This document shows, piece by piece, positions 846 to 59,532 of a stretch of DNA of 64,000 nucleotides. The position numbers were made by a program, and so were the translations under genes. Each line of letters begins with the position of its first letter. Positions within the stretch are counted from its first letter, which is position 1. Location: positions 1 to 64,000 of the forward strand of contig NZ_JARGEM010000002.1 in the NCBI RefSeq assembly GCF_029211225.1, in the 5' to 3' direction. Under the pieces are notes generated by a model. The model searched no databases, was not told the DNA's origin, and saw nothing but the letters and a program-made list of their open reading frames with translations. Origin of the DNA: Antiquaquibacter metalliresistens. GTDB taxonomy: Bacteria > Actinomycetota > Actinomycetes > Actinomycetales > Microbacteriaceae.

Positions 846-1490
846 TCAGGCCGCCTTCCGACTGCCGAATCGGCCCACGAAGAAGCTCACCGGGAAGAGC
901 GCGAACCAGAAGTACATCGCGGCATCCCCCGACCAGAGCAGCGCGATCGGGATGCTCGCCCAGAACACCGCCGGCGTGCTGAGCAGATCGCGCACCACGT
1001 ACCTGTAGACCGCGTCGCCGACCGCGGGGTCGAGCAGACCGGCTCTGTGCGCATAGACCCAGATCGCCAGCTGCATCATGCTGAGCGCACCGACCACGAA
1101 CGCGTAGAGCACCACCGCGGGCACCTGCCCGCCGTACTCGGCGAGCAGGCTCGTGGGAAACGGCACGAACGCGACGAGGAACAGCAGGCCGAGGTTGATC
1201 CACAGCAGTGGGCCGTCGTGCCCCTTGATCACGCGGAACTTGCGATGGTGACCCAACCAGTTGAGCGCGATGATGACGAACGAGAGCGCGTACGCGAAGA
1301 AGTCCGGGAGCGCGTCCACGATCAGGTCCCACGCCGAGCCGTCACCACTGGATGGCCGCGGAAGGTCGAGCACGAGCAGGGTGATCGCGATCGCGAAGAT
1401 CGCGTCGCTGAAGTACACCATGCGGTCGCTGTCGCCGCCGCGCGAGACCAGCCGCAGGTATCGTTCGCGCACCGTCTCCACGACGCACAT
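846..1490 (-). CDS. TMEM175-like (DUF1211) membrane channel protein
   Basis: A 214-residue protein with about six hydrophobic segments. Residues near 22-40 carry the family hallmark FSDAIFAIAITLLVLDL, the pore-lining motif of TMEM175/DUF1211 potassium channels; bacterial members normally have one such repeat and form tetramers, which fits this length. A basic loop (HHRKFRVIKGH) follows the second or third helix. The ATG at 1490 lies only 21 bases from the GTG of the divergent P450 at 1512, so both promoters overlap. A physical role (K+ leak) is known for the family only; a link to the P450 is not shown. Confidence 0.85.
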   Translation of the reverse strand: MCVVETVRERYLRLVSRGGDSDRMVYFSDAIFAIAITLLVLDLPRPSSGDGSAWDLIVDALPDFFAYALSFVIIALNWLGHHRKFRVIKGHDGPLLWINLGLLFLVAFVPFPTSLLAEYGGQVPAVVLYAFVVGALSMMQLAIWVYAHRAGLLDPAVGDAVYRYVVRDLLSTPAVFWASIPIALLWSGDAAMYFWFALFPVSFFVGRFGSRKAA

Positions 1491-1511: not shown

Positions 1512-2750
1512 GTGCCGGTAGCCGAGGACAAGACCGCCCCACGCCGCGAGCGCGTTCTGAACCCGCTCACCGACGGCATCGGGTCGAGCGCGAAAGCCCA
1601 CGAGCATCGCCTCCTGAGCGCGGCCCGGCCCGCACTGCCGTATCTGAACTGGCTGGGCACCCTCGCGAGGCCCATCATGCGGGTGCCGGGCCTCGGCTGG
1701 ATCACCGCGGACCCGCTCACGGCCCGCGCCGTGCTCAACGACCCCGACCACTTCACCCTGCTGAGCGAGGGCGGCGTCGGTCACCTCTGGGCGCAGATCC
1801 TCGGCGACTGGGTCTACGAGCTGTTCGACGGCCCCGGGCATTACGACCTGCGCACCCGCAGCCGCGAGCTGTTCACCGAGAAGACGAGCTTCGACTTCGT
1901 CGAGAAGGCGTGGGGTTCGCGCATCGAGGATGCCCGGCTGCGCTTCGACGCCGGCGAGGCGATCGACCTCGCCGACCTCTCCCGCATGCTCGTGGGGCAG
2001 ATGGTGGTGGCACTGCTGGGCATGCCCGTGCCCGACACGGATGCCGCGTACCGGGAGATCTTCGCGACCGGTGAGGAACTGGCATCCACCGCCCTCGGCA
2101 CCACGGCCGACACCGTGCTGCCGCCGCACAAGATCGCGCGCGCCCGGGAGATCGTGGAGCGTCTGACGGGGCACATCGATGCCGCGTTCGAGAGCGCGCC
2201 GACCGATACGATCATCGGCCGCTGCCGGGAGCTCGGGTTGAGCCTGCGCGAGACGAAGGGACTGTCGACGCTGCTCATGGTCGCGGGCACCGAGACGGCG
2301 GCCTCGGCGATGGCGCGCACGGCGGCGCTGCTCTACGACACGGGTGAGCAGCACCGACTCATCGAGCACCCCGACTACCTGGAGAGCGCCGTGCGGGAGG
2401 CGCTGCGCGTCACCTCCCCCGCCCCGATCATCGGCCGCTCCGTGCTCGCCGACCTCGAGATCGGCGGGCGCAGCCTGAAGGCCGGTGAACGCATCATCGT
2501 GCTCACCTGGACCGCCAACAACCTCGCCGGCGAGTACCGGGTGGACCGCGCCTACATTCCGCAGAACCGTCAGCTGTGGTTCGGCGCGGGACGGCACCTG
2601 TGCCTGGGTGGGCCGCTCGCGCGCGCCGAGCTCGGCAAGATCGTGCAACTGCTCATCGGCGACGGCCGGCCGTTCCGCGTGGTCTCGCGCCGCTATGGGC
2701 GACGGGTGCTGATTCCCGCCTACGAGAGTCTGGTGGTGCAGAAGGCCTAG
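1512..2750 (+). CDS. cytochrome P450
   Basis: A 412-residue soluble-type P450. It shows the I-helix motif AGTET at residues 258-262, the K-helix ExxR at E296-R299, and the heme loop FGAGRHLCLGG with axial ligand C364. The usual PERF region is poorly conserved. It resembles the P450 at 6216-7364 along its length: both have RVPGLG near the N-terminus, LWFGAG-H-CLG at the heme and LIPxYxSLVV at the C-terminus, so the two are paralogs. A TAGATT box at 1500-1505 sits six bases before the GTG start, suggesting a leaderless mRNA. Its stop codon shares the palindrome CTAG with the stop of the convergent CDF gene. Electron donors are not encoded nearby, so substrate and redox partner are unknown. Confidence 0.93.
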   Translation: MPVAEDKTAPRRERVLNPLTDGIGSSAKAHEHRLLSAARPALPYLNWLGTLARPIMRVPGLGWITADPLTARAVLNDPDHFTLLSEGGVGHLWAQILGDWVYELFDGPGHYDLRTRSRELFTEKTSFDFVEKAWGSRIEDARLRFDAGEAIDLADLSRMLVGQMVVALLGMPVPDTDAAYREIFATGEELASTALGTTADTVLPPHKIARAREIVERLTGHIDAAFESAPTDTIIGRCRELGLSLRETKGLSTLLMVAGTETAASAMARTAALLYDTGEQHRLIEHPDYLESAVREALRVTSPAPIIGRSVLADLEIGGRSLKAGERIIVLTWTANNLAGEYRVDRAYIPQNRQLWFGAGRHLCLGGPLARAELGKIVQLLIGDGRPFRVVSRRYGRRVLIPAYESLVVQKA

Positions 2751-3652
2751 TCGTGGGTGGGATGCTCGTGCTCGCCGTGCTCGGCCCGCTCGAGCTGGAA
2801 CGTGGAGTGGTCGATCTGCACCGCGAAGTGTCCCGCCACGCACGATTGGAGATCGTCGAGCATCTTGGGGGCATGCCCGTCGTAGAAGCACTCGTCGTCC
2901 ACGACGACGTGGGCGGTGAGCACGGGCATCCCGGTCGCGATCTGGCTGGCGTGCAGGTCGTGCACCGACTGCACGTGCGGCACCGCAAGGATGTGCTGGC
3001 GCACCGCCTCGAGATCGAGTCCCTTCGGCGTCGCCTCGAGCAGCACGTTCGTGGTGTCGCGCAGCAGCAGCACCGCCCGGGGCACGATGAGCACGCCGAT
3101 GAGGATCGCGGCGATCGAGTCGGCATAGCCGAACCCGGTGAGGGCGATGACGATCGCCGCGACGATCACGGCGACCGAACCGAGGGCATCGTTGAGCACC
3201 TCGAGGAACGCGGCGCGCAGGTTGAGGTTGCGGTGGCGCCCGCCCATGAGCACCGCGAGGGATGCCACGTTCGCCAGCAACCCGATGACGCCGAAGATCA
3301 CCAGCAGCCCGCCGTCGATCTCGGGCGGCGCGAACAGCCGCTGCACGGCCTCGATGACGACGAACACGCCGACCGCCAGCAGCACCGCCGCCTGTGCGGT
3401 CGCACCGAGCACCTCGGCGCGCATCCAGCCCCAGGTGCGGCGCGCGGTCGGCGGTCGTTCGGCGAGCGAGGCGGCGACGAGGGCGATCACGAGCCCGCCC
3501 GAGTCGGTGAGCATGTGGGCGGCGTCCACGAGCAGCGCGAGGCTGCCGGTGAGGATCGCACCGACGACCTCCGCGGCGAAAACGATGACCGTTATCGACA
3601 ACGCGATGGCGATCCGCCCACGACCGGTCGGTGCCGCGTGATCGTGGGTCAT
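2747..3652 (-). CDS. cation diffusion facilitator (CzcD-type) metal exporter
   Basis: A 301-residue CDF transporter with six predicted membrane helices (about residues 14-180) and a cytoplasmic C-terminal domain that begins after ATPKGLDLEAV. The family exchanges protons for Zn2+ or related divalent metals. In helix 2 the metal site reads D43, H46 and D50 (AAHMLTD). In helix 5 the equivalent HxxxD reads ExxxD (E151, D155, in EVLNDALGS), which could alter metal preference. Both termini are His-rich (MTHDH at the start, EHGEHEHPTHD at the end). It lies 31 bases downstream of the OleD-like gene on the same strand and may be co-transcribed with that cluster; a weak hairpin separates them. Confidence 0.92.
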   Translation of the reverse strand: MTHDHAAPTGRGRIAIALSITVIVFAAEVVGAILTGSLALLVDAAHMLTDSGGLVIALVAASLAERPPTARRTWGWMRAEVLGATAQAAVLLAVGVFVVIEAVQRLFAPPEIDGGLLVIFGVIGLLANVASLAVLMGGRHRNLNLRAAFLEVLNDALGSVAVIVAAIVIALTGFGYADSIAAILIGVLIVPRAVLLLRDTTNVLLEATPKGLDLEAVRQHILAVPHVQSVHDLHASQIATGMPVLTAHVVVDDECFYDGHAPKMLDDLQSCVAGHFAVQIDHSTFQLERAEHGEHEHPTHD

Positions 3653-3683: not shown

Positions 3684-4550
3684 TCACCAAGCTTCGGCGC
3701 CCGTGAGCCTCGTCGGCCTCGGACGGTAGCCCAGCCGCTCGCGAGCGGCGGTGAGGTCGAGTGTGCGCTCCAACCCGAGCTGGCTGACCGCGTAGCGGGT
3801 CAGCCGCGGGCGGCGACCGCCCAGGCGCGCGGCGGCTTCGAGGGCGGCGGCGGCGGCGAACGCTGCGGGGTAGGGGATGCCGGTGAGCGCGACATCCGCT
3901 CGTCCCCGGCGACCGAGGAACTCGCGCAGCACCGCAGCCAGCAGCACCTCGGTGTCGTCACCGATGTTGTAGACGCCGGTCGGCGCCGTGAGGGCGAGTT
4001 CGACGGCGTCGACCAGGTTGTCGATGTGGGTGAGGGTGTGGCGCACCTCCGCGCCGGCGGGCAGCGCCAGTCGGTGACCGCGGATGCCGGCCAGGATGCG
4101 CGGCAGCAGGGTGCGGTCACCGGGGCCGTACACGGCGTGGGGTCGCAGGACCACGGCGTTCGCACCGACCTCGAGCTCGGCGCGGGTCTTCGTCTCCGCG
4201 TAGCTGCTCAGAAACCTCGTGACCGGCGCCGCGTTCTCACGCACCCGCACGTTCGGTGCGAACGCGTCGTAGACGCTCGCCGTGGAGATGTGCACGACCC
4301 GGGCTCCGGGAAAGCTCGCGACGACGTTGCGCGTGCCGATCACGTTGGACAGCATCGCCGCAGCGCGCGGCGCCCAGTCGTCGGCGAGCGCCGCGCTGTG
4401 CACGACGGCATCGGCCCGGCCGTCGATGGGCCCGCTCGTGATATCCCACTCCCGGCGCGTGTACGCCGTCACCTCGTGACCGCGCTCGGCGAGCGCGCGC
4501 GCGACGGCACCGCCGACAAACCCCGCCGCTCCCGTGACGGCCACCCTCAT
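3684..4550 (-). CDS. NAD(P)-dependent reductase, extended SDR, OleD-like
   Basis: A 288-residue extended short-chain dehydrogenase of the 3-beta-HSD/epimerase type. The nucleotide-binding glycines are at GAAGFVG (residues 7-13), the catalytic pair is Y117 and K121 (YAETK), and the upstream Ser/Thr is in HISTAS (about 88-92). In olefin and beta-lactone pathways OleD reduces a 2-alkyl-3-ketoacid to the 3-hydroxyacid. That role is inferred here from the neighbours: its ATG overlaps the stop of the OleC-like ligase by four bases (ATGA), and an OleA-like condensing enzyme is in the same run of genes. OleD proteins are usually somewhat longer (about 330 residues), so a plain sugar or steroid-type epimerase remains possible. 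Confidence 0.8.
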   Translation of the reverse strand: MRVAVTGAAGFVGGAVARALAERGHEVTAYTRREWDITSGPIDGRADAVVHSAALADDWAPRAAAMLSNVIGTRNVVASFPGARVVHISTASVYDAFAPNVRVRENAAPVTRFLSSYAETKTRAELEVGANAVVLRPHAVYGPGDRTLLPRILAGIRGHRLALPAGAEVRHTLTHIDNLVDAVELALTAPTGVYNIGDDTEVLLAAVLREFLGRRGRADVALTGIPYPAAFAAAAALEAAARLGGRRPRLTRYAVSQLGLERTLDLTAARERLGYRPRPTRLTGAEAW

Positions 4551-6022
4551 CGCAGCGCCTCCGCGAGGGCGGCGCGGTCGAGCTTGCCGCTGCGGCCCTT
4601 GCGCGGGAGCGCCTCGAGGCGCACGATGCGATCGGGCAGCACGGCGGCGTCGATGAGACCGGGCAGGGCGCCCGCGATGGATGCCTGGTCCGCCTCGCCG
4701 ACGTAGGCGAGCACGATGGCGTCGTCGCCGATCTCGTTCGGCACACCCACGAGCGCGGCCTCGTCGACGCCGGCCAGCGATGCGATCACCGGCTCGTAGA
4801 GGCCCGGGTAGACGTTGGTGGTGCCGCGGATGAACATGTCCTTCGCGCGACCGGCGAGCACGAGGCGGCGGCCGTTCAGCCGGGCGAGGTCACCCGTCGC
4901 GAGCCGCTCGAGCGGGGGCTGACCGAGATAGCCGAGCGCGAGCCCCGGGCCGGCGAGCACGAGCTCGCCGTCGACGACCGTCGCTGCCACGGTGCGCATG
5001 AGTTCGCCGACGTCGTCGCCCGCACCGACGAACGCGAGCTTCGCGTCGCCGTCCGCGATCGCGACCGGGAGGATCTCGGTCATGCCGTAGATCGCTCGGA
5101 TCGCAGCGCGGGGAAAGCGCGCCCTGGCGCGCTCGAGCAGGGGCCGCAGCACGGGGGCACCGCCGATCAGGAGCATGCGCAGGCGGGGAGCCGCGGCATC
5201 CATGCGCAGCAGGGCGTCGAGCGCGGCGGGCACCGCGAAGAGCACGTTCGCCTCGGCCAGCAGGGGCAGGTAGCGCTTCGGCCGGGCGCCCGGGTCGGCG
5301 CCCGTCGGCGGCAGCACCCAGTGCGCACCGCCGATGAGCGCCGGGATGCCGACCATCAGCTGATCGGTGAGCACGCGTTCCCCGGGCACGAACCCCACCG
5401 CCTCGGCGAAGTCGCCGAGCCCGGCGCCGAGCGAGGAGCGGGAGTGCACCACCGCCTTCGGCGCCTGCGTGGTGCCGCTCGTGAAGATGATCAGCGCCTC
5501 GCCGCGCGGGTCGCCGCGCAGCGCGCCCGCGGCGCCCCCGAGCAGTCGCCCCAGGCTCAGTGCCCCCTTCGGCACCCCCCGCAATCGGGGGCCGGCGACG
5601 ATGTGCCTCGCGTGCGGCACGACGCTCGCGTAGTCGGGCAGCTCGAGACCGCGGCGTCGGGCGATGCCCCGCAGCGGGCCGGATGACGCGGCGTACAGCA
5701 CCGCTTCGGCCGCCACCCACCGCGGATCCGCAAGCCCTGCCCGAGCCCGGAACATCGCCTCCCCCGCCCCCGGGTCGGCGAAGACGACCGTGCCGCCGGC
5801 GGCGATGATGCCGAGCGCGAGACAGATGCCGTCGAGACCCGGGCGCACCGAGAACAGCACCCGATCGCCCGGCACGAAGCCCTCGCGCTCGAGCGCGCCC
5901 GCCACGCCCAGCACCCGATCGCGCAGCCGACCGAAGCTCAGCGTGCGGCGACCGAGGGTCATCGCGGGCGCCTCAGGGGTGCGCTCGCACGCCTCCAACA
6001 CGGCGCCCAGGATGTCGCTCAT
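4547..6022 (-). CDS. AMP-forming ligase, OleC-like (beta-lactone synthetase type)
   Basis: A 491-residue ANL-superfamily adenylating enzyme. It carries the ATP loop FTSGTTQAPK (residues 180-189), YGMTE (312-316), TGDLARL near 376 and the C-terminal catalytic Lys in RKGRSGK (K480). The stretch VVFADPGAGEAMFRARAGL (about 79-97) matches the OleC style better than acyl-CoA ligases. OleC closes a 3-hydroxyacid into a beta-lactone using ATP. The position directly before the OleD-like gene, with a four-base overlap, supports that job, but a plain fatty-acid ligase cannot be excluded. I chose the ATG at 6022 because similarity begins there; a longer frame upstream would read through the palindromic repeats at 6088-6168. 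No clear ribosome binding site precedes this ATG. Confidence 0.85.
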   Translation of the reverse strand: MSDILGAVLEACERTPEAPAMTLGRRTLSFGRLRDRVLGVAGALEREGFVPGDRVLFSVRPGLDGICLALGIIAAGGTVVFADPGAGEAMFRARAGLADPRWVAAEAVLYAASSGPLRGIARRRGLELPDYASVVPHARHIVAGPRLRGVPKGALSLGRLLGGAAGALRGDPRGEALIIFTSGTTQAPKAVVHSRSSLGAGLGDFAEAVGFVPGERVLTDQLMVGIPALIGGAHWVLPPTGADPGARPKRYLPLLAEANVLFAVPAALDALLRMDAAAPRLRMLLIGGAPVLRPLLERARARFPRAAIRAIYGMTEILPVAIADGDAKLAFVGAGDDVGELMRTVAATVVDGELVLAGPGLALGYLGQPPLERLATGDLARLNGRRLVLAGRAKDMFIRGTTNVYPGLYEPVIASLAGVDEAALVGVPNEIGDDAIVLAYVGEADQASIAGALPGLIDAAVLPDRIVRLEALPRKGRSGKLDRAALAEALR

Positions 6023-6087
6023 CGCGCCACTGCTCGGGCGGCGCCGGGCACGGCCCAAGGTGCGCCGGGGATGGTTCGGTCTGCGGC

Positions 6088-6168
6088 ACTCCCATTGTGA
6101 AGGAACTCCTTCAGAACGGGAGTGCGGGCGACACTCCCATGGTGAAGGAGTTCCTTCAGAACGGGAGC
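6088..6168. repeat. two copies of a 36-bp imperfect palindrome
   Basis: Copies lie at 6088-6123 and 6133-6168, 45 bases apart, in the spacer between the second P450 and the OleC-like gene. Each begins ACTCCCATKGTGAAGGA and ends TCCTTCAGAACGGGAG plus T or C, so each folds as a near-perfect hairpin with a tiny loop. A third copy is at 59497-59532. They could be transcript-processing or pausing hairpins inside the operon, or copies of a small non-coding mobile element. Confidence 0.8.
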
Positions 6169-6215
6169 GAAAGCGACGCATGACCCGACCTGCGCGATCC
6201 GGGAGGCGCGGTCGC

Positions 6216-7364
6216 TCACTGCGCGCTCCGAATCACCAGCGAGCGGTAGCCCGGAATGAGCACCCCGCGAGCGGGCGCCCGCGAGACGATCTCGAGCGGT
6301 CCGGCGGCCAGCAGCGCGCCAAGCGTGCCGCGGATCTGCGCCATCGCGAGCGGGGCGCCGAGGCAGAAGTGCGTGCCCGCGCCGAACCAGAGCTGCTTGA
6401 GCACCGCGGCCGCGTTCACGGACGGGTCGAAGTCGCCGAACGCGCGGTTCGCGGCGAAGGTCGCGAGAATCACCCGGTCGCCCGGGCGCACCGCGACGGC
6501 GCCGATCGTCGCGGGCGCGACCGCGCTGCGCAGCATCACGGGTGAGGGCGTGGTGACCCGCAGCCCCTCGGCGATGGCGGGTTCGACGAGCGCGGGGTCG
6601 GAGCTCAGCCGCGGCATCCAGCCCGAATCGACGAGCAGGGCGACGAGCCGCGGGATGTAGGAGACCAGCGTCTCGGTGCCGGTGAGCACGAAGGCGCCCA
6701 CCGCACCCATCGCCTCGTCCTCCGTGAGGCCGAGCGAGCGCACGCGGCCCGGCACCGTGGACTCGTCGCCCGCCCCGTAGGCGGCGCGGGCGTGCACGGT
6801 GAGCTCGTCGAGGATCGCGCGCGCGGCCGCAGCCTGGGCGGGTGTGAGCCGCGGACGGGAGAGGCGCACGAACCGGGTGATCGAGGAGACGCGATCGAAC
6901 AGCGCATCGTCCACCTCGCTGGGCGGCAGGCCGACGAGCTGAGCGATCATGGCGCTCGCGTTGCGCTTGGCCTCCGCGACCACGTCGACCGGCTCGCCGT
7001 CGACCAGCCGTGCGGTGAGCTGCGCGGCGGGCAGCGAGCGGGCGACCAGGGGCTCGACGTAGGCCGGGGCGAAGAGCGGGCCGAGCTTGCGACGCAGGGC
7101 GAGGTGGTCGGCGCCCTCCATGTTCAGCAGCACGGCGGGGCCGAGCACGGGCGTCCAGAGGTCGCTCGGCGCTCCCGGCCCGGTCTTCGAGAACGCGGCG
7201 GTGTTCATGAGCGTCGCCCGCAGCAGCTCGGCGTCGCGCACGAGCACCCCGAGCCCGGGCACGCGCTGCACGGGCGCTCGGGAGGCCTTGAGCAGAGGGT
7301 AGGCGATGGGATGCGCGGCTCGCATCACCCGCTCCTCCCACTCCCGCGCCAGGGCGACGTTCAC
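6216..7364 (-). CDS. cytochrome P450
   Basis: A 382-residue P450 with I-helix TGTET (residues 228-232), ExxR at E266-R269, and heme loop FGAGTHFCLGA with C334. It is paralogous to the P450 at 1512. Its ATG overlaps the stop of the glycosyltransferase gene by four bases, so the two are translationally coupled, and it is the third gene after the OleA-like enzyme. This makes oxidation of the cluster's lipid product or its precursor likely, but the substrate cannot be read from the sequence. About 190 bases holding two palindromic repeats separate it from the OleC-like gene downstream. Confidence 0.93.
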   Translation of the reverse strand: MNVALAREWEERVMRAAHPIAYPLLKASRAPVQRVPGLGVLVRDAELLRATLMNTAAFSKTGPGAPSDLWTPVLGPAVLLNMEGADHLALRRKLGPLFAPAYVEPLVARSLPAAQLTARLVDGEPVDVVAEAKRNASAMIAQLVGLPPSEVDDALFDRVSSITRFVRLSRPRLTPAQAAAARAILDELTVHARAAYGAGDESTVPGRVRSLGLTEDEAMGAVGAFVLTGTETLVSYIPRLVALLVDSGWMPRLSSDPALVEPAIAEGLRVTTPSPVMLRSAVAPATIGAVAVRPGDRVILATFAANRAFGDFDPSVNAAAVLKQLWFGAGTHFCLGAPLAMAQIRGTLGALLAAGPLEIVSRAPARGVLIPGYRSLVIRSAQ

Positions 7365-8101
7365 CGGATGTCCACGTGCTCGGGCCGGTACGCGTGGTCC
7401 TTGTACCAGAGCAGGGTGTTCTTCAGTCCCCAGGCGTTCACGCGCCGCGAGGAGCCGTAGACCACGACATCCCGCCGCCTGGCGTAGCGGTCGGTGATGC
7501 GACGCACGGCGTTGACGAGCGCGCGGTCCTCGTGCAGGTCCTCGATCGCGGTGCGCGGAAAGCCGCCGGCGGCCTCGTAGAGCGCCGCCGTGATGCCTAC
7601 GTTGCAGCCCGCCGCCATCATGTAGGGCCCGAGGTATTCGGCGGAGCGGTTGCCGGGACGGATGCGCCCGAACGCCTCCGCGAGCTCCACTGCGGCGCGC
7701 AGCAGCACCCGGCGACGCAGCGGCAGCCCCTCGTCGTGGCGCGGCACGAGCTCGCCGCCGACGAGCCCGAGTCCCTCGGTCGTCAGCGATCGGCGGATCG
7801 CGGCCGTCCAGTCGCGACGGGGCAGACAGTCGGCGTCGGTGCGAGCGAGCAGCGTCGCCCCCGCGGCGATGGCGGCGCGCATCCCGGTGTCCGCGGCCGC
7901 TCCCGTGCCCTTCTGCGGCTCAGGCACGATGCTCCAGCGCGGATGCCCGAACGCCCGGATCACGTCGGCCGAGGCATCCGTCGAACCGTTGTCGACGAAG
8001 ATCACGTCGAAGTCGGCGTCGTGCTGCGCGGCCAGCGCCTCGAGCGTCGGGCGGATACCGGCGGCCTCGTTGTAGACCGGCACGACCACGAACAGACTCA
8101 C
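7361..8101 (-). CDS. family 2 glycosyltransferase
   Basis: A 246-residue GT-A type transferase: VVVPVYNEA near residue 5, VDNGSTD (36-42), the metal-binding DxD as D89-A-D91 (RTDADC), and an acidic acceptor-side motif EDLHED (187-192). There are no clear membrane helices, so it should be cytosolic or peripheral. It would move a sugar from a nucleotide- or polyprenyl-linked donor to an unknown acceptor. Its start overlaps the OleA-like stop by four bases and its stop overlaps the P450 start by four, placing it firmly in the same transcript; glycosylation of the lipid product is a reasonable inference. Confidence 0.88.
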   Translation of the reverse strand: MSLFVVVPVYNEAAGIRPTLEALAAQHDADFDVIFVDNGSTDASADVIRAFGHPRWSIVPEPQKGTGAAADTGMRAAIAAGATLLARTDADCLPRRDWTAAIRRSLTTEGLGLVGGELVPRHDEGLPLRRRVLLRAAVELAEAFGRIRPGNRSAEYLGPYMMAAGCNVGITAALYEAAGGFPRTAIEDLHEDRALVNAVRRITDRYARRRDVVVYGSSRRVNAWGLKNTLLWYKDHAYRPEHVDIR

Positions 8102-9105
8102 AACCGCACCACCATGAGCCCCAGGCTGATGCCGCCGGCCAGCCCGATGAGCAGCACGAGGCTGCCCGGCGCGACCATCCCGCGCTCTCGCGCCCGCACC
8201 AGCTGCAGCGGCAGCGTGACGGAGGCGAGGTTGCCGTGGTCGGCGATCGTGATCACCGACTTGTCGTCGGCCACGCCGAGCCGCTCGAAGATCGGGGGCA
8301 GGTACGGCAGCGCCACCTGGTGGATCGCGACGAGATCGAAGTCGTCCCAGCTGAGGCCGTTCTTCTCGAGCAGCGCGAGCACGGGCTCCGGGCCGAGCTC
8401 GAGGAACGCCTGCTGCAGTCCGTGCCCGTCCATGTCGAAGTAGGCGTGCTCGATGCTGCGCGGGTTCATCGAGCCCCCGGTCGGCAGTGTGCCGATATGC
8501 CAGTGCTTCGAGACCGCGACGAAGCTCGAATCGAGGATGCCGATGCCCGCGTCATCCGTCGCCTCGAGGATCACCGCGGCGCCGCCGTCGCTCATCGTGT
8601 AGCCCGGGAACGAGCGGATGAACTGCTCGTGATCGCGCAGGCTCCACCGCACCCCGTGGCTCGGCTGCTCGCCGCTGGCGATGAGCACCCTGCGGTACTG
8701 ACCGCTGCCGATCAGCGCCTCCGCGACCTGCATGGCGTTGATCACCGAGTTGCAGGCGTTCTTGATGTCCATCACCGGGCATTCGAAGCCGAGCTTGGCG
8801 GCGACGATGTGGCTCGTCGCCGGCTCGATGAGATCCTGACTGGCACTCGCGAAGATGAGCAGGTCCGGCGCACCGGGCGACTCCTCGAGGGCGAGCCGTG
8901 CCGCCGCGACGGCGAGGTCGGAGGTCTGCCACCCCTCGGGCCGCACGTGCACGCTGTCCACGCCGGTCAGGCGGTGGATCAGTCCGGTCGCGAGCTTGAG
9001 CCTCGGGTTCGATGTGCGCAGATCGCGTTCGGTCTGCACGGTCGTTCGGGTGCGCTCCGGAAGATAGACGCCGAGGCCTGCGATACGGGTCGAAGCGGAG
9101 TGCAC
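8098..9105 (-). CDS. KAS III / OleA-like thiolase-fold condensing enzyme
   Basis: A 335-residue 3-oxoacyl-ACP synthase III family protein. The catalytic triad is C118 (in DIKNACNSVINAMQ), H262 (AIHQVALPY) and N292 (DHGNLASVTLPL). Such enzymes condense acyl-CoA or acyl-ACP units; OleA joins two fatty acyl-CoAs head to head to give a 2-alkyl-3-ketoacid. The choice of OleA over FabH rests on the neighbours (OleC- and OleD-like genes) and on the absence of fatty-acid synthesis genes here. The GTG at 9105 lies seven bases after a TAGGCT box (9118-9113) whose TAG is the stop codon of the upstream gene, so it may have its own leaderless promoter inside the operon. Confidence 0.85.
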   Translation of the reverse strand: MHSASTRIAGLGVYLPERTRTTVQTERDLRTSNPRLKLATGLIHRLTGVDSVHVRPEGWQTSDLAVAAARLALEESPGAPDLLIFASASQDLIEPATSHIVAAKLGFECPVMDIKNACNSVINAMQVAEALIGSGQYRRVLIASGEQPSHGVRWSLRDHEQFIRSFPGYTMSDGGAAVILEATDDAGIGILDSSFVAVSKHWHIGTLPTGGSMNPRSIEHAYFDMDGHGLQQAFLELGPEPVLALLEKNGLSWDDFDLVAIHQVALPYLPPIFERLGVADDKSVITIADHGNLASVTLPLQLVRARERGMVAPGSLVLLIGLAGGISLGLMVVRL

Positions 9106-9115
9106 GCGTGCGAGC

Positions 9116-10078
9116 CTACTGCCGGGTCGCGCGGTGAGCCTTCACGATGCCATCGGCGGAGTCCCCGATCCCACCGAGCACGAAGACCAGCGCCATCACG
9201 GGGGCGAGAATCGACGCGCCGATCTGGTCGGGCCATCCCAACCGGGAGAGGAATTCGGGGTTGAAGACGCGGTCGTTCAGCACGAGCCAGGCGGCGGGTG
9301 CGACGAAGGCCACGTTCAGCACCACGTTGATCGCCGCCATCGGCCAGGTCCACCTGCGAAGCGCGTAGAGCACGATCGCGAAGGCGAGCTCGAGGCCGAT
9401 GAGCACGTAGACGTACGGGATCCAGAACGACCACAGCTCCGGCTGCAGCACCGGGATCGGGTCGCCCGCGGCATCCACGAACACGGACGACACCTGCTGC
9501 CAGACGAGCGCGCCGGCGAAGAACAGCAGGAACACGACGGAGGCGATCGCCTCGCCCAGCCCCGTGCGGGAGCGCGTGTCCGGCAGTTCGGGCAGGGCAT
9601 CGAGTCGCCACTCGACGAACGGACCCTTACGGGGCTGGCCGGTGCGCTCGAGGATCGCGAACACGAGCGTGGTCCAGAACCCCAGATGCACCGCGATCGC
9701 GATCGCGGTCGCGACCGAACTGCCGATGACCTCCCCGATGCCGTCGCCGGCGATCGTTCGGGCGAGGATGATCGCGGCGACCGCGATGGGCAGCACGATC
9801 GCATAGAGCACCTTCAGCAGGCGCAGGTAGTCGAAGTAGTACCGGGGACCGATGAGCATGTTCGGCCGCTGCGCGTACGAGGCCGCGAGCCGATCGGGAT
9901 CACCGAGCGCGAGCAGCGCTTCGCGCTCGGCGGTCACAGCATCGGCGCCGTCCGCGATGCGCGCCTCGATGTCGTCCGCGATGGATGCCCGGAGCTCGCG
10001 CTCGATGTCGGCGCGTTGATCCTGCGGTACAGCCCGGACGACGGCCCAGACATAGCGGTCGGTGAGCGTGGTCATCAT
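9116..10078 (-). CDS. HAAS-domain membrane protein paired with PadR
   Basis: A 320-residue membrane protein. The first 75 residues are the helical HAAS/permease-prefix type domain (AERELRAS-like helix RADIERELRASIADDIEARI, then LGDPDRLAASY). They are followed by about six to seven hydrophobic segments between residues 90 and 310. Proteins of this layout are regularly encoded beside PadR regulators and are thought to be partners or targets of them. Here the ATG overlaps the PadR stop by four bases. The molecular activity is unknown. Only ten bases separate its stop from the OleA-like gene. Confidence 0.8.
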   Translation of the reverse strand: MMTTLTDRYVWAVVRAVPQDQRADIERELRASIADDIEARIADGADAVTAEREALLALGDPDRLAASYAQRPNMLIGPRYYFDYLRLLKVLYAIVLPIAVAAIILARTIAGDGIGEVIGSSVATAIAIAVHLGFWTTLVFAILERTGQPRKGPFVEWRLDALPELPDTRSRTGLGEAIASVVFLLFFAGALVWQQVSSVFVDAAGDPIPVLQPELWSFWIPYVYVLIGLELAFAIVLYALRRWTWPMAAINVVLNVAFVAPAAWLVLNDRVFNPEFLSRLGWPDQIGASILAPVMALVFVLGGIGDSADGIVKAHRATRQ

Positions 10079-10407
10079 GCCTTCCCTTCATCGAGGTTCA
10101 TGATCGACTGGTGGAGGCTCCCCCAGTCCTTCAGCAGCACCGAGGCGAGCTCGTCGCCCGCGGCGCTCGTGCGGTAGAACTTGCGCGGCCTGGACTGATC
10201 GGTGTTCCAGTCGCTCTCGAGGTAGCCCTGGCTCTCGAGGCGGCGCAGCAGCGGGTAGAGCGTGTTCGCATCGACGGCGAAGCCCAACCCGGAGAGGCGC
10301 TCCAGCAGCGCGTAGCCGTAGTCGGGCGTGCGCAGCACGATCAGGCACGCGAGCACGACGGTGCCGCGCCGAAGCTCCTGCAGGTGTCCACTCGTCACGT
10401 CATCCAC
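10075..10407 (-). CDS. PadR family transcriptional regulator
   Basis: A PadR winged-helix repressor of about 110 residues: RRGTVVLACLIVL, DYGYALLERL, NTLYPLLRRLESQGYLES and the wing RPRKFYRTSAAGDEL. The open frame could begin at a GTG at 10431, but that codon lies inside a promoter: a TTGACA box at 10444-10439 and a TAACGT box at 10420-10415, 18 bases apart. The GTG at 10407 is seven bases after the second box, so I take it as a leaderless start. A perfect palindrome between the boxes is the likely operator, meaning autorepression. As first gene of the minus-strand run it probably controls the lipid cluster. Confidence 0.88.
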   Translation of the reverse strand: MDDVTSGHLQELRRGTVVLACLIVLRTPDYGYALLERLSGLGFAVDANTLYPLLRRLESQGYLESDWNTDQSRPRKFYRTSAAGDELASVLLKDWGSLHQSIMNLDEGKA

Positions 10408-10444
10408 GAGGGACACGTTAGTGTGTGTCACACACCATTGTCAA
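10408..10444 (-). promoter_or_regulatory. padR promoter with operator palindrome
   Basis: Reading the minus strand: -35 TTGACA (10444-10439), an 18-base spacer, and -10 TAACGT (10420-10415). The spacer holds GTGTGTG-A-CACACAC (10435-10421), a perfect 7+7 inverted repeat with one central base. A repressor bound there would block RNA polymerase. This is the only strong promoter I see for the minus-strand lipid cluster. Confidence 0.65.
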
Positions 10445-10459
10445 TCACACGAGTACGTG

Positions 10460-12235
10460 TCAGCCGTCGAGCAGTTCCGACAGCTCGAGCCACCTCACCT
10501 CGGCGTTCGCGAGCTCGCCTTCGAGGGCCGCGGTCTCCTCCATGAGCACCGAGAGTCCCGCGAAGTCGGACTGATCGGCGATCGCCATGCGCTCGTGCAG
10601 GCTCGCGATCGAGGCGCCGAGCTTGTCCATTTTGCGGGTGATGGCCGCGATCTCCTTCTGCGCGTTGCGCAGTTCGGCGCCCGCGAGTTTCGGCGTAGCG
10701 GCCGGTGCCGCCTTCGTCGCAGCACCCTTGAGCTGTCCGGCGCGCAGCTCCAAGTACTGGTCGACCCCGCGCGGCAGGTGCCGCAGGCCGCCATCGATCA
10801 CCGCGTACTGCTGGTCGGTGACGCGCTCCACGAGGTACCGGTCGTGGCTGACGACCAGGAGGGTCCCGGGGAAGGAGTCGAGCAGATCCTCGATGGCGGC
10901 GAGCATGTCGGTGTCGAGATCGTTGGTCGGCTCATCCAGGATCAGCACGTTCGGCTCCGACAGCAGGATGAGCAGCAGCTGCAGGCGGCGTTTCTGCCCG
11001 CCCGAGAGGTCCTTGACCGGCGTGGAGAGCTGCGCGTTCGAGAAGCCGACCCGCTCGAGGAGCTGGCCCGGAGTCATCTCCTTGCCGCCCGCGACGTAGG
11101 TGCTGCGTTGGCGGCCGATCACCTCGCTCACCCGGTCGTTCCAGACGTCGGCGAGCTCGGAGAGCTGCTGGGTGAGCGTTGCGACCTTGATCGTCTTGCC
11201 GCGCTTGACCCGTCCGCTCGTCGGCTGCAGGGAGCCCGCGACGAGGGACAGCAGGGTGGACTTGCCTGCACCGTTCACCCCGAGGATGCCGGTGCGCTCG
11301 CCCGGCGCGATGCGCCACGTGACATCCCGCAGCACGCTCTTGTCGCCGTAGGAGACGCTCACGTTCTCGAGGTCGACCACGTCTTTGCCGAGACGCTGCA
11401 TCGCCATCTGCGACAGCGACACGCTGTCGCGCACGGGCGGTTCGTTCTCGATGAGCTCGTTGGCGGCATCGATGCGGAACTTGGGCTTCGACGTGCGGGC
11501 CGGGGCGCCTCGGCGCAGCCACGCGAGCTCCTTGCGCATGAGGTTCTGCCGCTTGGACTCGGATGCCGCGGCCATGCGATCCCGCTCCACCCGCTGCAGG
11601 ATGTAGGCCGCGTACCCGCCCTCGAAGGGCTCGATGAGGCGGTCGTGCACCTCCCACGTGGCCGTGCAGATCTCGTCGAGGAACCACCGGTCGTGGGTGA
11701 CGACCACGAGCCCGCCGGAGCTCTGCGACCAGCGCCGCTTGAGGTGCCCGGCGAGCCAGGCGATGCCCTCGACATCGAGGTGGTTGGTGGGCTCGTCGAG
11801 GAAGATCACGTCCCAGTCGCCGATGAGCAGTGCGGCGAGCGCGACGCGGCGGCGCTGTCCGCCCGAGAGGTCGTCGACCTTCGCCTCCCACGGGATGTCC
11901 GCGATGAGGCCGGCGATGACATCCCGCACCTTCGGGTCGCCCGCCCAGACGTGCTCGTCGATGTCGCCGATGACCGTCTCGTGCACGGTCTTGCCGCTGG
12001 CGAGTTCGTCGGCCTGGTCGAGCATGCCGAGCGTGATGCCGCCGCGCCGGGTGACGCGTCCGTCGTCGGGCTCGAGCCGCCCGGCGAGCAGACGCAGCAG
12101 GGTGGACTTGCCGTCGCCGTTGCGGCCGACGATACCGATGCGATCCCCCTCGTCGAGGCCGATCGTGACCTTGTCGAAGATCACGCGGTTCGGGTATTCG
12201 AGGTGCAGCGCTTCAGCGCCGAGAAGGTGTGCCAT
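10460..12235 (-). CDS. ABC-F family ATPase (Uup/ribosome-associated type)
   Basis: A 591-residue protein with two ABC ATPase domains and no membrane segment. The Walker A motifs are GRNGDGKST (near 38) and GVNGAGKST in the second half; the signatures are LSGGQRRRVALA and LSGGQKRRLQLL. It ends in a roughly 70-residue charged coiled coil (AQKEIAAITRKMDKL), as in Uup. ABC-F proteins act on the ribosome, some relieving stalls and some giving antibiotic resistance; the interdomain linker does not let me choose. I start it at the ATG at 12235, where MAHLLGAEALHLEY leads directly into the first ATPase domain. It is divergent from the MOSC gene with 24 bases between starts. Confidence 0.92.
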   Translation of the reverse strand: MAHLLGAEALHLEYPNRVIFDKVTIGLDEGDRIGIVGRNGDGKSTLLRLLAGRLEPDDGRVTRRGGITLGMLDQADELASGKTVHETVIGDIDEHVWAGDPKVRDVIAGLIADIPWEAKVDDLSGGQRRRVALAALLIGDWDVIFLDEPTNHLDVEGIAWLAGHLKRRWSQSSGGLVVVTHDRWFLDEICTATWEVHDRLIEPFEGGYAAYILQRVERDRMAAASESKRQNLMRKELAWLRRGAPARTSKPKFRIDAANELIENEPPVRDSVSLSQMAMQRLGKDVVDLENVSVSYGDKSVLRDVTWRIAPGERTGILGVNGAGKSTLLSLVAGSLQPTSGRVKRGKTIKVATLTQQLSELADVWNDRVSEVIGRQRSTYVAGGKEMTPGQLLERVGFSNAQLSTPVKDLSGGQKRRLQLLLILLSEPNVLILDEPTNDLDTDMLAAIEDLLDSFPGTLLVVSHDRYLVERVTDQQYAVIDGGLRHLPRGVDQYLELRAGQLKGAATKAAPAATPKLAGAELRNAQKEIAAITRKMDKLGASIASLHERMAIADQSDFAGLSVLMEETAALEGELANAEVRWLELSELLDG

Positions 12236-59496: not shown

Positions 59497-59532
59497 ACTC
59501 CCGTTCTGAAGGAACTCCTTCACAACGGGAGT
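59497..59532. repeat. third copy of the 36-bp imperfect palindrome
   Basis: The element reads ACTCCCGTTCTGAAGGA, AC, then TCCTTCACAACGGGAGT: a hairpin with one C-C mismatch. It matches the copies at 6088-6123 and 6133-6168. Here it lies between convergent genes, where it could act as a terminator or mRNA end hairpin for both. Confidence 0.8.

Follow-up and report, generated by a model that had tools for sequence, protein, structure and literature searches.

A conserved actinobacterial gene set related to ole operons and its possible product, an oxidised and glycosylated lipid

What does a bacterium make from relatives of the olefin enzymes OleA, OleC and OleD when a cytochrome P450 and a glycosyltransferase stand among them and no OleB is found? 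The question is raised by a gene run of Antiquaquibacter metalliresistens on contig NZ_JARGEM010000002.1. The window, by which we mean the whole stretch of DNA analysed, is the first 64 kb of this contig; the genome is 3.07 Mb and 97.7% complete. A first-pass annotation had named seven open reading frames (ORFs) on the minus strand, and all seven lie at the coordinates given below and match the named families in Pfam and NCBIfam. The close packing it described was confirmed. Four-base overlaps join OleD to OleC, P450 to GT2, GT2 to OleA, and HAAS to PadR; the gap between OleA and HAAS is 10 bases, and the spacer is 193 bases. The best reading, in line with that annotation, is an oxidised, glycosylated lipid of the Ole type. 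It is based on a core related to OleA, OleD and OleC, a single OleA, a P450 and a glycosyltransferase in the operon, and no OleB. We favour this product tentatively, with a lactone or a hydroxy acid as its end form. The genes are as follows.

1512–2750, plus strand: cytochrome P450 a, 412 amino acids, the recurrent second P450
3684–4550, minus strand: OleD-like extended short-chain dehydrogenase/reductase (SDR), 288 amino acids
4547–6022, minus strand: OleC-like adenylate-forming ligase; the mechanical ORF reaches 6181
6023–6215, minus strand: 193-base spacer with two palindromic repeat copies, 6089–6122 and 6134–6167
6216–7364, minus strand: cytochrome P450 b, 382 amino acids; heme Cys and Glu-Thr pair present
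7361–8101, minus strand: GT2 glycosyltransferase, 246 amino acids; modelled GT-A fold; DxD and HEDR motifs
8098–9105, minus strand: OleA-like condensing enzyme, 335 amino acids; Cys118, Glu94, His262 and Asn292
9116–10078, minus strand: HAAS-domain membrane protein
10075–10431, minus strand: PadR regulator

The ligase probably starts at 6022 and not at 6181, because the alignments of most relatives begin near residue 54.

The unit is oleA-GT2-P450 b-oleC-oleD, often with P450 a. A scan of species genomes for the cluster OleA gave 355 relatives, of which the best 80 serve as named loci. Its pattern was made of two peptides, QDL[IV]EPAT and V[MF]D[VI]KNAC, so the Glu and Cys are conditioned in the loci that it found. 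Neighbourhoods were counted in the 67 loci with at least 5 kb on each side of oleA; 13 with less than 5 kb were excluded, as were P450 a and OleC matches below 35% identity. All five core genes are present in 52 of the 67 loci, and in 51 of these 52 they share order and strand. Near oleA we found P450 b in 67 loci, OleD-like genes in 62, GT2 in 57, OleC-like genes in the same 57, and P450 a in 36 (35 of the 52 five-gene loci). The annotation had put P450 a and a metal exporter at the flanks. The first recurs and is no mere flank; the second, a CDF exporter, does not recur outside the genus and was rightly placed there. The gene set occurs in Microbacteriaceae, Micrococcaceae, Promicromonosporaceae, Cellulomonadaceae, Pseudonocardiaceae, Thermomonosporaceae and Streptomycetaceae. 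Among the best 80 of 355, the nearest OleAs are from Rhodoglobus and Salinibacterium (86–90% identity), which places the genome in the Microbacteriaceae. In a whole-protein search with the OleA, 20 of the 249 family genomes, this one included, gave strong relatives. Clustering of 26 diverse loci for a further conserved gene returned the known genes and reverse-frame shadows, with every additional family in at most eight loci and no widely recurring acyl transferase.

No OleB gene was found in the window, as the annotation had noted, or in the rest of the genome. The best match of an OleB profile (304 positions, built from 12 OleBC fusions) is 32 bits over 107 of the 304 positions, and its presence is not fully excluded because the genome is 97.7% complete. 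The same search was made in other cluster genomes. For 50 of the 80 named loci, at E ≤ 1e-40, a strong match lies elsewhere in the genome in 11 and none was found in 39; cluster and separate OleB thus share 11 genomes of the 50. Strong matches score 358–490 bits (14 listings, with some genomes listed twice). Nineteen other family genomes with the cluster, searched at E ≤ 1e-10, gave five matches, of which three are strong (452–490 bits) and come from one genus (code g50). Matches in G093 (98 bits, with most of the profile covered) and G205 (45 bits) were not counted as OleB. In the six OleB loci that were inspected, OleB lies in a second operon, apart from the cluster, which carries an OleA, OleC and OleD of its own.

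The condensing enzyme carries the catalytic residues of an OleA. The residue numbers in the next sentence are those of Xanthomonas campestris OleA, in which Glu117 is the OleA glutamate. When the cluster profile is aligned with that structure (PDB 3row), C143, E117, H285 and N315 fall on identical cluster residues. The Cys-His-Asn triad and the OleA glutamate are invariant in 15 of 15 rows of an alignment of whole-protein matches, which covers 15 of the 20 family genomes with strong relatives. The residue counts for the P450s, GT2 and OleD given below cover rows long enough to align, the window included. The wider comparison, and the trees of OleA, OleC and OleD, used 32 of the 80 named loci, the window and 16 reference oleABCD loci. 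The reference loci have OleC-family matches and were chosen among 136 of the order's 347 genomes; each has OleA-, OleC- and OleD-like frames, and OleB domains fused to OleC were seen in 14. One locus, L003, gave no match to the OleA hidden Markov model. The glutamate is present in 33 of 33 cluster rows, 32 of which come from the scan whose pattern requires it. It is present in 17 of 17 OleA rows and in none of six FabH-type rows, which have Thr, Phe or Ser. An unrooted tree with the six FabH-type rows gave three groups: cluster (100/100), FabH-type (100/100) and OleA (62/8). Since the tree is unrooted and the groups are separate, it does not decide whether the cluster is nearer to OleA or to FabH; with one FabH outgroup the reference OleAs are not one group. 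The first-pass view of an OleA distinct from FabH therefore stands for the glutamate, and gives way in the tree to a third group beside both. The cluster has one OleA, and three KAS III C-terminal matches occur in the genome, on three contigs.

Two reference loci (L203 and L210, from two large genomes in one family of the order) hold, beside an OleBC fusion and OleD, an OleA that is much nearer the cluster OleAs, with scores of 252 and 266 bits. The other 14 reference OleAs score far lower, at 93–129 bits. Neither of the two loci has a GT2 or P450 b match within its 10 kb region. Their OleAs are possibly a link between the two pathways. Separately, the OleAs at L063:8037–9107, L064:8105–9187 and L065:8635–9717 carry inserts of about 20–40 residues, rich in Ala, Gly and Pro, at one position.

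The reductase is related to OleD. Its best family match is NF042422 with 115 bits, below the cut-off of 580. The OleD Tyr and Lys are present in 68 of 68 rows. With a model of the cluster OleD, the OleDs of the 16 ole loci score 169–202 bits, and the best other SDR of the genome scores 108. Loss of the gene may also bear on the substrate. We started from the 50 loci searched for OleB and removed eight variants without GT2 and L106, in which the contig end falls inside oleC. Of the remaining 41 GT2-type loci, 36 have oleD and five do not (four Agrococcus, one Cellulosimicrobium). OleB was found in the genomes of all five clusters without OleD, against 5 of 36 with it (Fisher 3e-4 if independent). 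A cluster OleD profile gave a single match (E ≤ 1e-20) in each of the five genomes and in G119, which also lacks the clustered oleD, and each time the match falls on the OleD that the separate ole operon encodes. The most economical account is that, where the cluster has no oleD, the canonical enzyme would serve both pathways. In that case the cluster intermediate would be a 2-alkyl-3-keto acid or something close to it.

The ligase is OleC-like and probably sister to OleC. In a quick tree with long branches and a small sample, the cluster ligases come together (support 100) as sister to the 16 OleC rows, with a Shimodaira–Hasegawa-like approximate likelihood ratio test (SH-aLRT) value of 97. 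Set against them were 11 rows of other ligases of the genome, representing nine genes, two of which are doubled through overlapping loci. In this tree the ligase does not fall with those nine genes, in line with the annotation. The motif K.DR is found in 13 of 13 cluster ligases, 7 of 9 OleC rows and none of six other ligases, and a YGMTE.LPV stretch is largely common to cluster ligases and OleC. The name OleC would still be too strong, because the kinship is that of a sister group, the OleC scores are low and motifs are altered. In motif A3 the residue after the lysine/arginine is Ala in 13 of 13 cluster ligases; the 15 rows of OleC and other ligases all have Gly.

The GT2 enzyme retains the DxD aspartates in 68 of 68 rows. 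Its model has a mean predicted local distance difference test score (pLDDT) of 89 and matches many GT-A enzymes with template modelling (TM) scores of about 0.6; this does not tell the donor or acceptor.

From the presence, conservation and kinship of these genes we infer every reaction of the following route. The OleA-like enzyme, judged by its residues and gene context, would join two acyl chains head to head to give a 2-alkyl-3-keto acid. The OleD-like enzyme would reduce this to a 2-alkyl-3-hydroxy acid; the genomes whose sole remaining OleD is a canonical one lend support to this step. The OleC-like ligase would adenylate the acid and most likely close a beta-lactone, which is the weakest part of the route. 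A chain may be hydroxylated by P450 b, in many loci joined by P450 a, and GT2 may add a sugar to a hydroxyl. With no OleB, CO2 would not be removed, and the pathway would end at the lactone or the hydroxy acid. The annotation's proposal that the core genes make a beta-lactone is supported as regards the OleA-, OleD- and OleC-related core, and weakened by the ligase, which is no more than a sister of OleC and has no counterpart of its C-terminal stretch.

Three kinds of known system resemble the locus. The oleABCD olefin pathway of Xanthomonas and Micrococcus shares the OleA-type catalytic residues, a related OleD and a ligase that is sister to OleC in the small tree; the cluster differs by having no OleB, by the added P450 or P450s and GT2, and by a ligase without the OleC C-terminal stretch. 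The lipstatin (lst) and nocardiolactone (nlt) clusters, likened here by description, also have OleA-, OleC- and OleD-related genes and no OleB. A P450 and a GT2 are not known to be part of lst or nlt clusters. Lipstatin uses a heterodimeric LstA/LstB pair, as stated in excerpts of Smith et al. 2020 (PMC7064751), whereas the cluster has one OleA and no adjacent pair of homologues. The closest description is in the same excerpts. In Actinoplanes atraurantiacus, OleA, a glycosyltransferase, OleC, a P450 and OleD occur together with no candidate oleB in the genome, and a hydroxylated, glycosylated beta-lactone was predicted. The annotation knew of no described cluster for such a lipid, and this prediction corrects it. 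The window has the same five kinds of protein, likewise no OleB found in the genome, and a divergent OleA (the Actinoplanes OleA is 29% identical to that of X. campestris). The excerpts name one P450, whereas a second P450 recurs in the present set. The likeness is one of protein kinds; there is no Actinoplanes among the best 80 of 355, and the product there is a prediction. The architecture has therefore already been proposed in outline (PMC7064751, as excerpted); the window cluster is real and conserved.

Several observations weigh against a lactone-forming Ole route. According to the excerpts of PMC7064751, purified Actinoplanes OleA did not condense C8–C16 acyl-CoAs, although there was little enzyme and it precipitated; it was active on a p-nitrophenyl ester. 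Two FabH structures outscore X. campestris OleA with the cluster profile (165 and 160 against 136 bits), and the NCBIfam OleA-type and FabH models are level, at 153 and 152 bits. In the OleD tree one unrelated long-branch SDR comes out with the cluster and OleD at a fork that is not resolved, and the OleD correlation comes from two lineages only, Agrococcus and one Cellulosimicrobium. The ligase is far under the OleC cut-offs (56 of 900 bits for NF045786, 98 of 478 for NF006754); OleC-family matches of the 136 order genomes are likewise below 478 bits (best 382). Five other ligases of the genome score 113–138 bits on the OleC-family model, where the cluster ligase scores 81. The C-terminal RHN[SA]KI stretch is found in none of 13 cluster ligases, against nine of nine actinobacterial OleC rows. 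GT2 and the OleC-like ligase are both gone from 10 of the 67 loci, replaced by an F390-synthetase-like ligase. Finally, the genes do not tell which hydroxyl bears the sugar. Of all the steps, lactone formation is the least certain, given a ligase that is no true OleC and the failure of the Actinoplanes OleA, the one tested enzyme from a set of this kind, to condense those acyl-CoAs.

The alternative that survives best has no lactone. Here the product would be a mycolate-like glycolipid, an oxidised, glycosylated 2-alkyl-3-hydroxy acid whose carboxyl the ligase activates for transfer as an ester, a CoA thioester or a glycosyl ester. We consider it unlikely, yet a serious contender. A ligase that is only a sister of OleC, with Ala in motif A3 and no RHN[SA]KI, would suit it, and the best-scoring model of the ligase is an acyl-CoA ligase (115 bits, cut-off 476). 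The replaced genes bear on it as well. The swap loci come from Herbiconiux and relatives, Agromyces and Psychromicrobium, and the F390-type ligase lies within about 4 kb of oleA. F390-synthetase-related ligases stand beside OleD-OleA-P450 at L063:10407–12032 and L061:10122–12188. The L063 protein matches TIGR02304 with 350 bits (cut-off 252); this match was made for one protein, and the other F390-like genes were recognised by their tblastn resemblance to those of L063 and L061. In 57 of 57 loci GT2 is accompanied by the OleC-like ligase, both are missing in 10 of 10 F390-type loci, and none of the 67 has GT2 next to the F390 type or lacking the OleC-like ligase. Since GT2 is never apart from this ligase, activation and glycosylation seem to be exchanged together, as a single module. 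Against a mycolate-like product, the ligase groups with OleC and not with the other ligases of the genome, and no acyl transferase or other family recurs widely in the 26 diverse loci. Taken further, the idea would be that of a mycolate-like glycolipid made by the Ole route and oxidised by one or two P450s, with GT2 and the OleC-like ligase as one exchangeable module, and hence of a widespread unseen lipid class and not a rare lactone antibiotic; we regard this as a speculation that is doubtful in its full form. These actinobacteria are not known to have mycolic acids.

A different KAS III pathway is improbable. The ligase would then load a small or aromatic acid, and condensation would give a ketide, pyrone or furan that is hydroxylated and glycosylated. 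The FabH scores above are in its favour, as are the variant ligase, which is of the F390/PaaK kind, and the failure on long acyl-CoAs of the OleA from the Actinoplanes set (in the excerpts already cited). The retained OleA glutamate, compared here with OleA and FabH-type rows only, and the OleD-type reductase speak for the Ole-type lipid instead, as does the finding that clusters without OleD occur only where a canonical OleD exists. PpyS- and DarB-type enzymes have a glutamate similar to that of OleA.

Supply of OleB from elsewhere, which would make this an olefin pathway, is very improbable: 11 of the 50 cluster genomes do have a strong match, but none was found in this genome or, at E ≤ 1e-40, in the other 39, and in the six loci checked OleB belongs to an operon with its own OleA, OleC and OleD. 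We also reject the P450-like proteins as heme-free partners of the glycosyltransferase, like the P450-derived activators of the EryCII kind, which are not known to have the heme cysteine; both match TIGR04515 weakly (80 and 43 bits, cut-off 343), but every row retains the heme Cys, ExxR and the Glu-Thr pair (77 of 77 for P450 b, 39 of 39 for P450 a).

If the Ole-type reading holds, such a lipid would have gone unseen in many common bacteria. Judged from search results, we recognised no other open-access paper on such clusters or their product, and neither the wide spread of the set nor its second P450, the ligase/glycosyltransferase swap or the sharing of OleD was found in open-access print. 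Excerpts of PMC7158056 make no mention of glycosyl or P450. The natural swap of ligase and glycosyltransferase could reveal a joint role of both enzymes. Other handles are the clusters that seem to rely on the OleD of a second ole operon, and a conserved site at which some congeners have the set and others do not. The genes around that site are listed here.

338–838: MarR gene
846–1490, minus strand: TMEM175-family channel gene, divergent from P450 a
2747–3652, minus strand: CDF cation exporter
10460–12235: ABC-F gene

The site beside the ABC-F gene was compared in 20 of 26 other genomes of the genus. The cluster is present in ten and absent from ten; an apparent general lack in congeners (0 of 4 other same-genus genomes) was a sampling effect. 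The MarR gene is near the site in nine of the ten congeners without the cluster, and L240 has a clean empty site with MarR about 150 bases from ABC-F. P450 a is found in nine of ten congeners with the cluster and in none of ten without it (Fisher 6e-5; the genomes are related and the counts not independent). For the TMEM175 gene the figures are seven of ten and none of ten; among the loci searched it occurs only in this genus and in two Lacisediminihabitans loci. The CDF exporter is at the site in ten of ten congeners with the cluster and two of ten without. It therefore tracks the cluster within the genus, though not outside it (near 8 of 80 relatives), and was rejected as a pathway member.

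PadR and HAAS, which the first-pass annotation had included in the run, are near the cluster in 1 of 80 relatives (one other genome, L067/L248) and were likewise set aside as pathway members; HAAS is the local partner of PadR. An ORF at 1047–1502 on the plus strand was rejected as a gene, having no family match and overlying the TMEM175 gene on the opposite strand. An Rfam search matched only a tRNA.

The palindromic repeat in the spacer follows approximately the pattern CTCCCGTT.TGAAGGA..TCCTTCA..A.GGGAG (at most three mismatches), with a third copy in the window at 59498–59531. Genome-wide there are 14 pattern matches, counting both strands, at eight places, against 0 for the reversed control. 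Two tandem copies thus lie within the operon spacer, and the repeat occurs at six further places in the genome.

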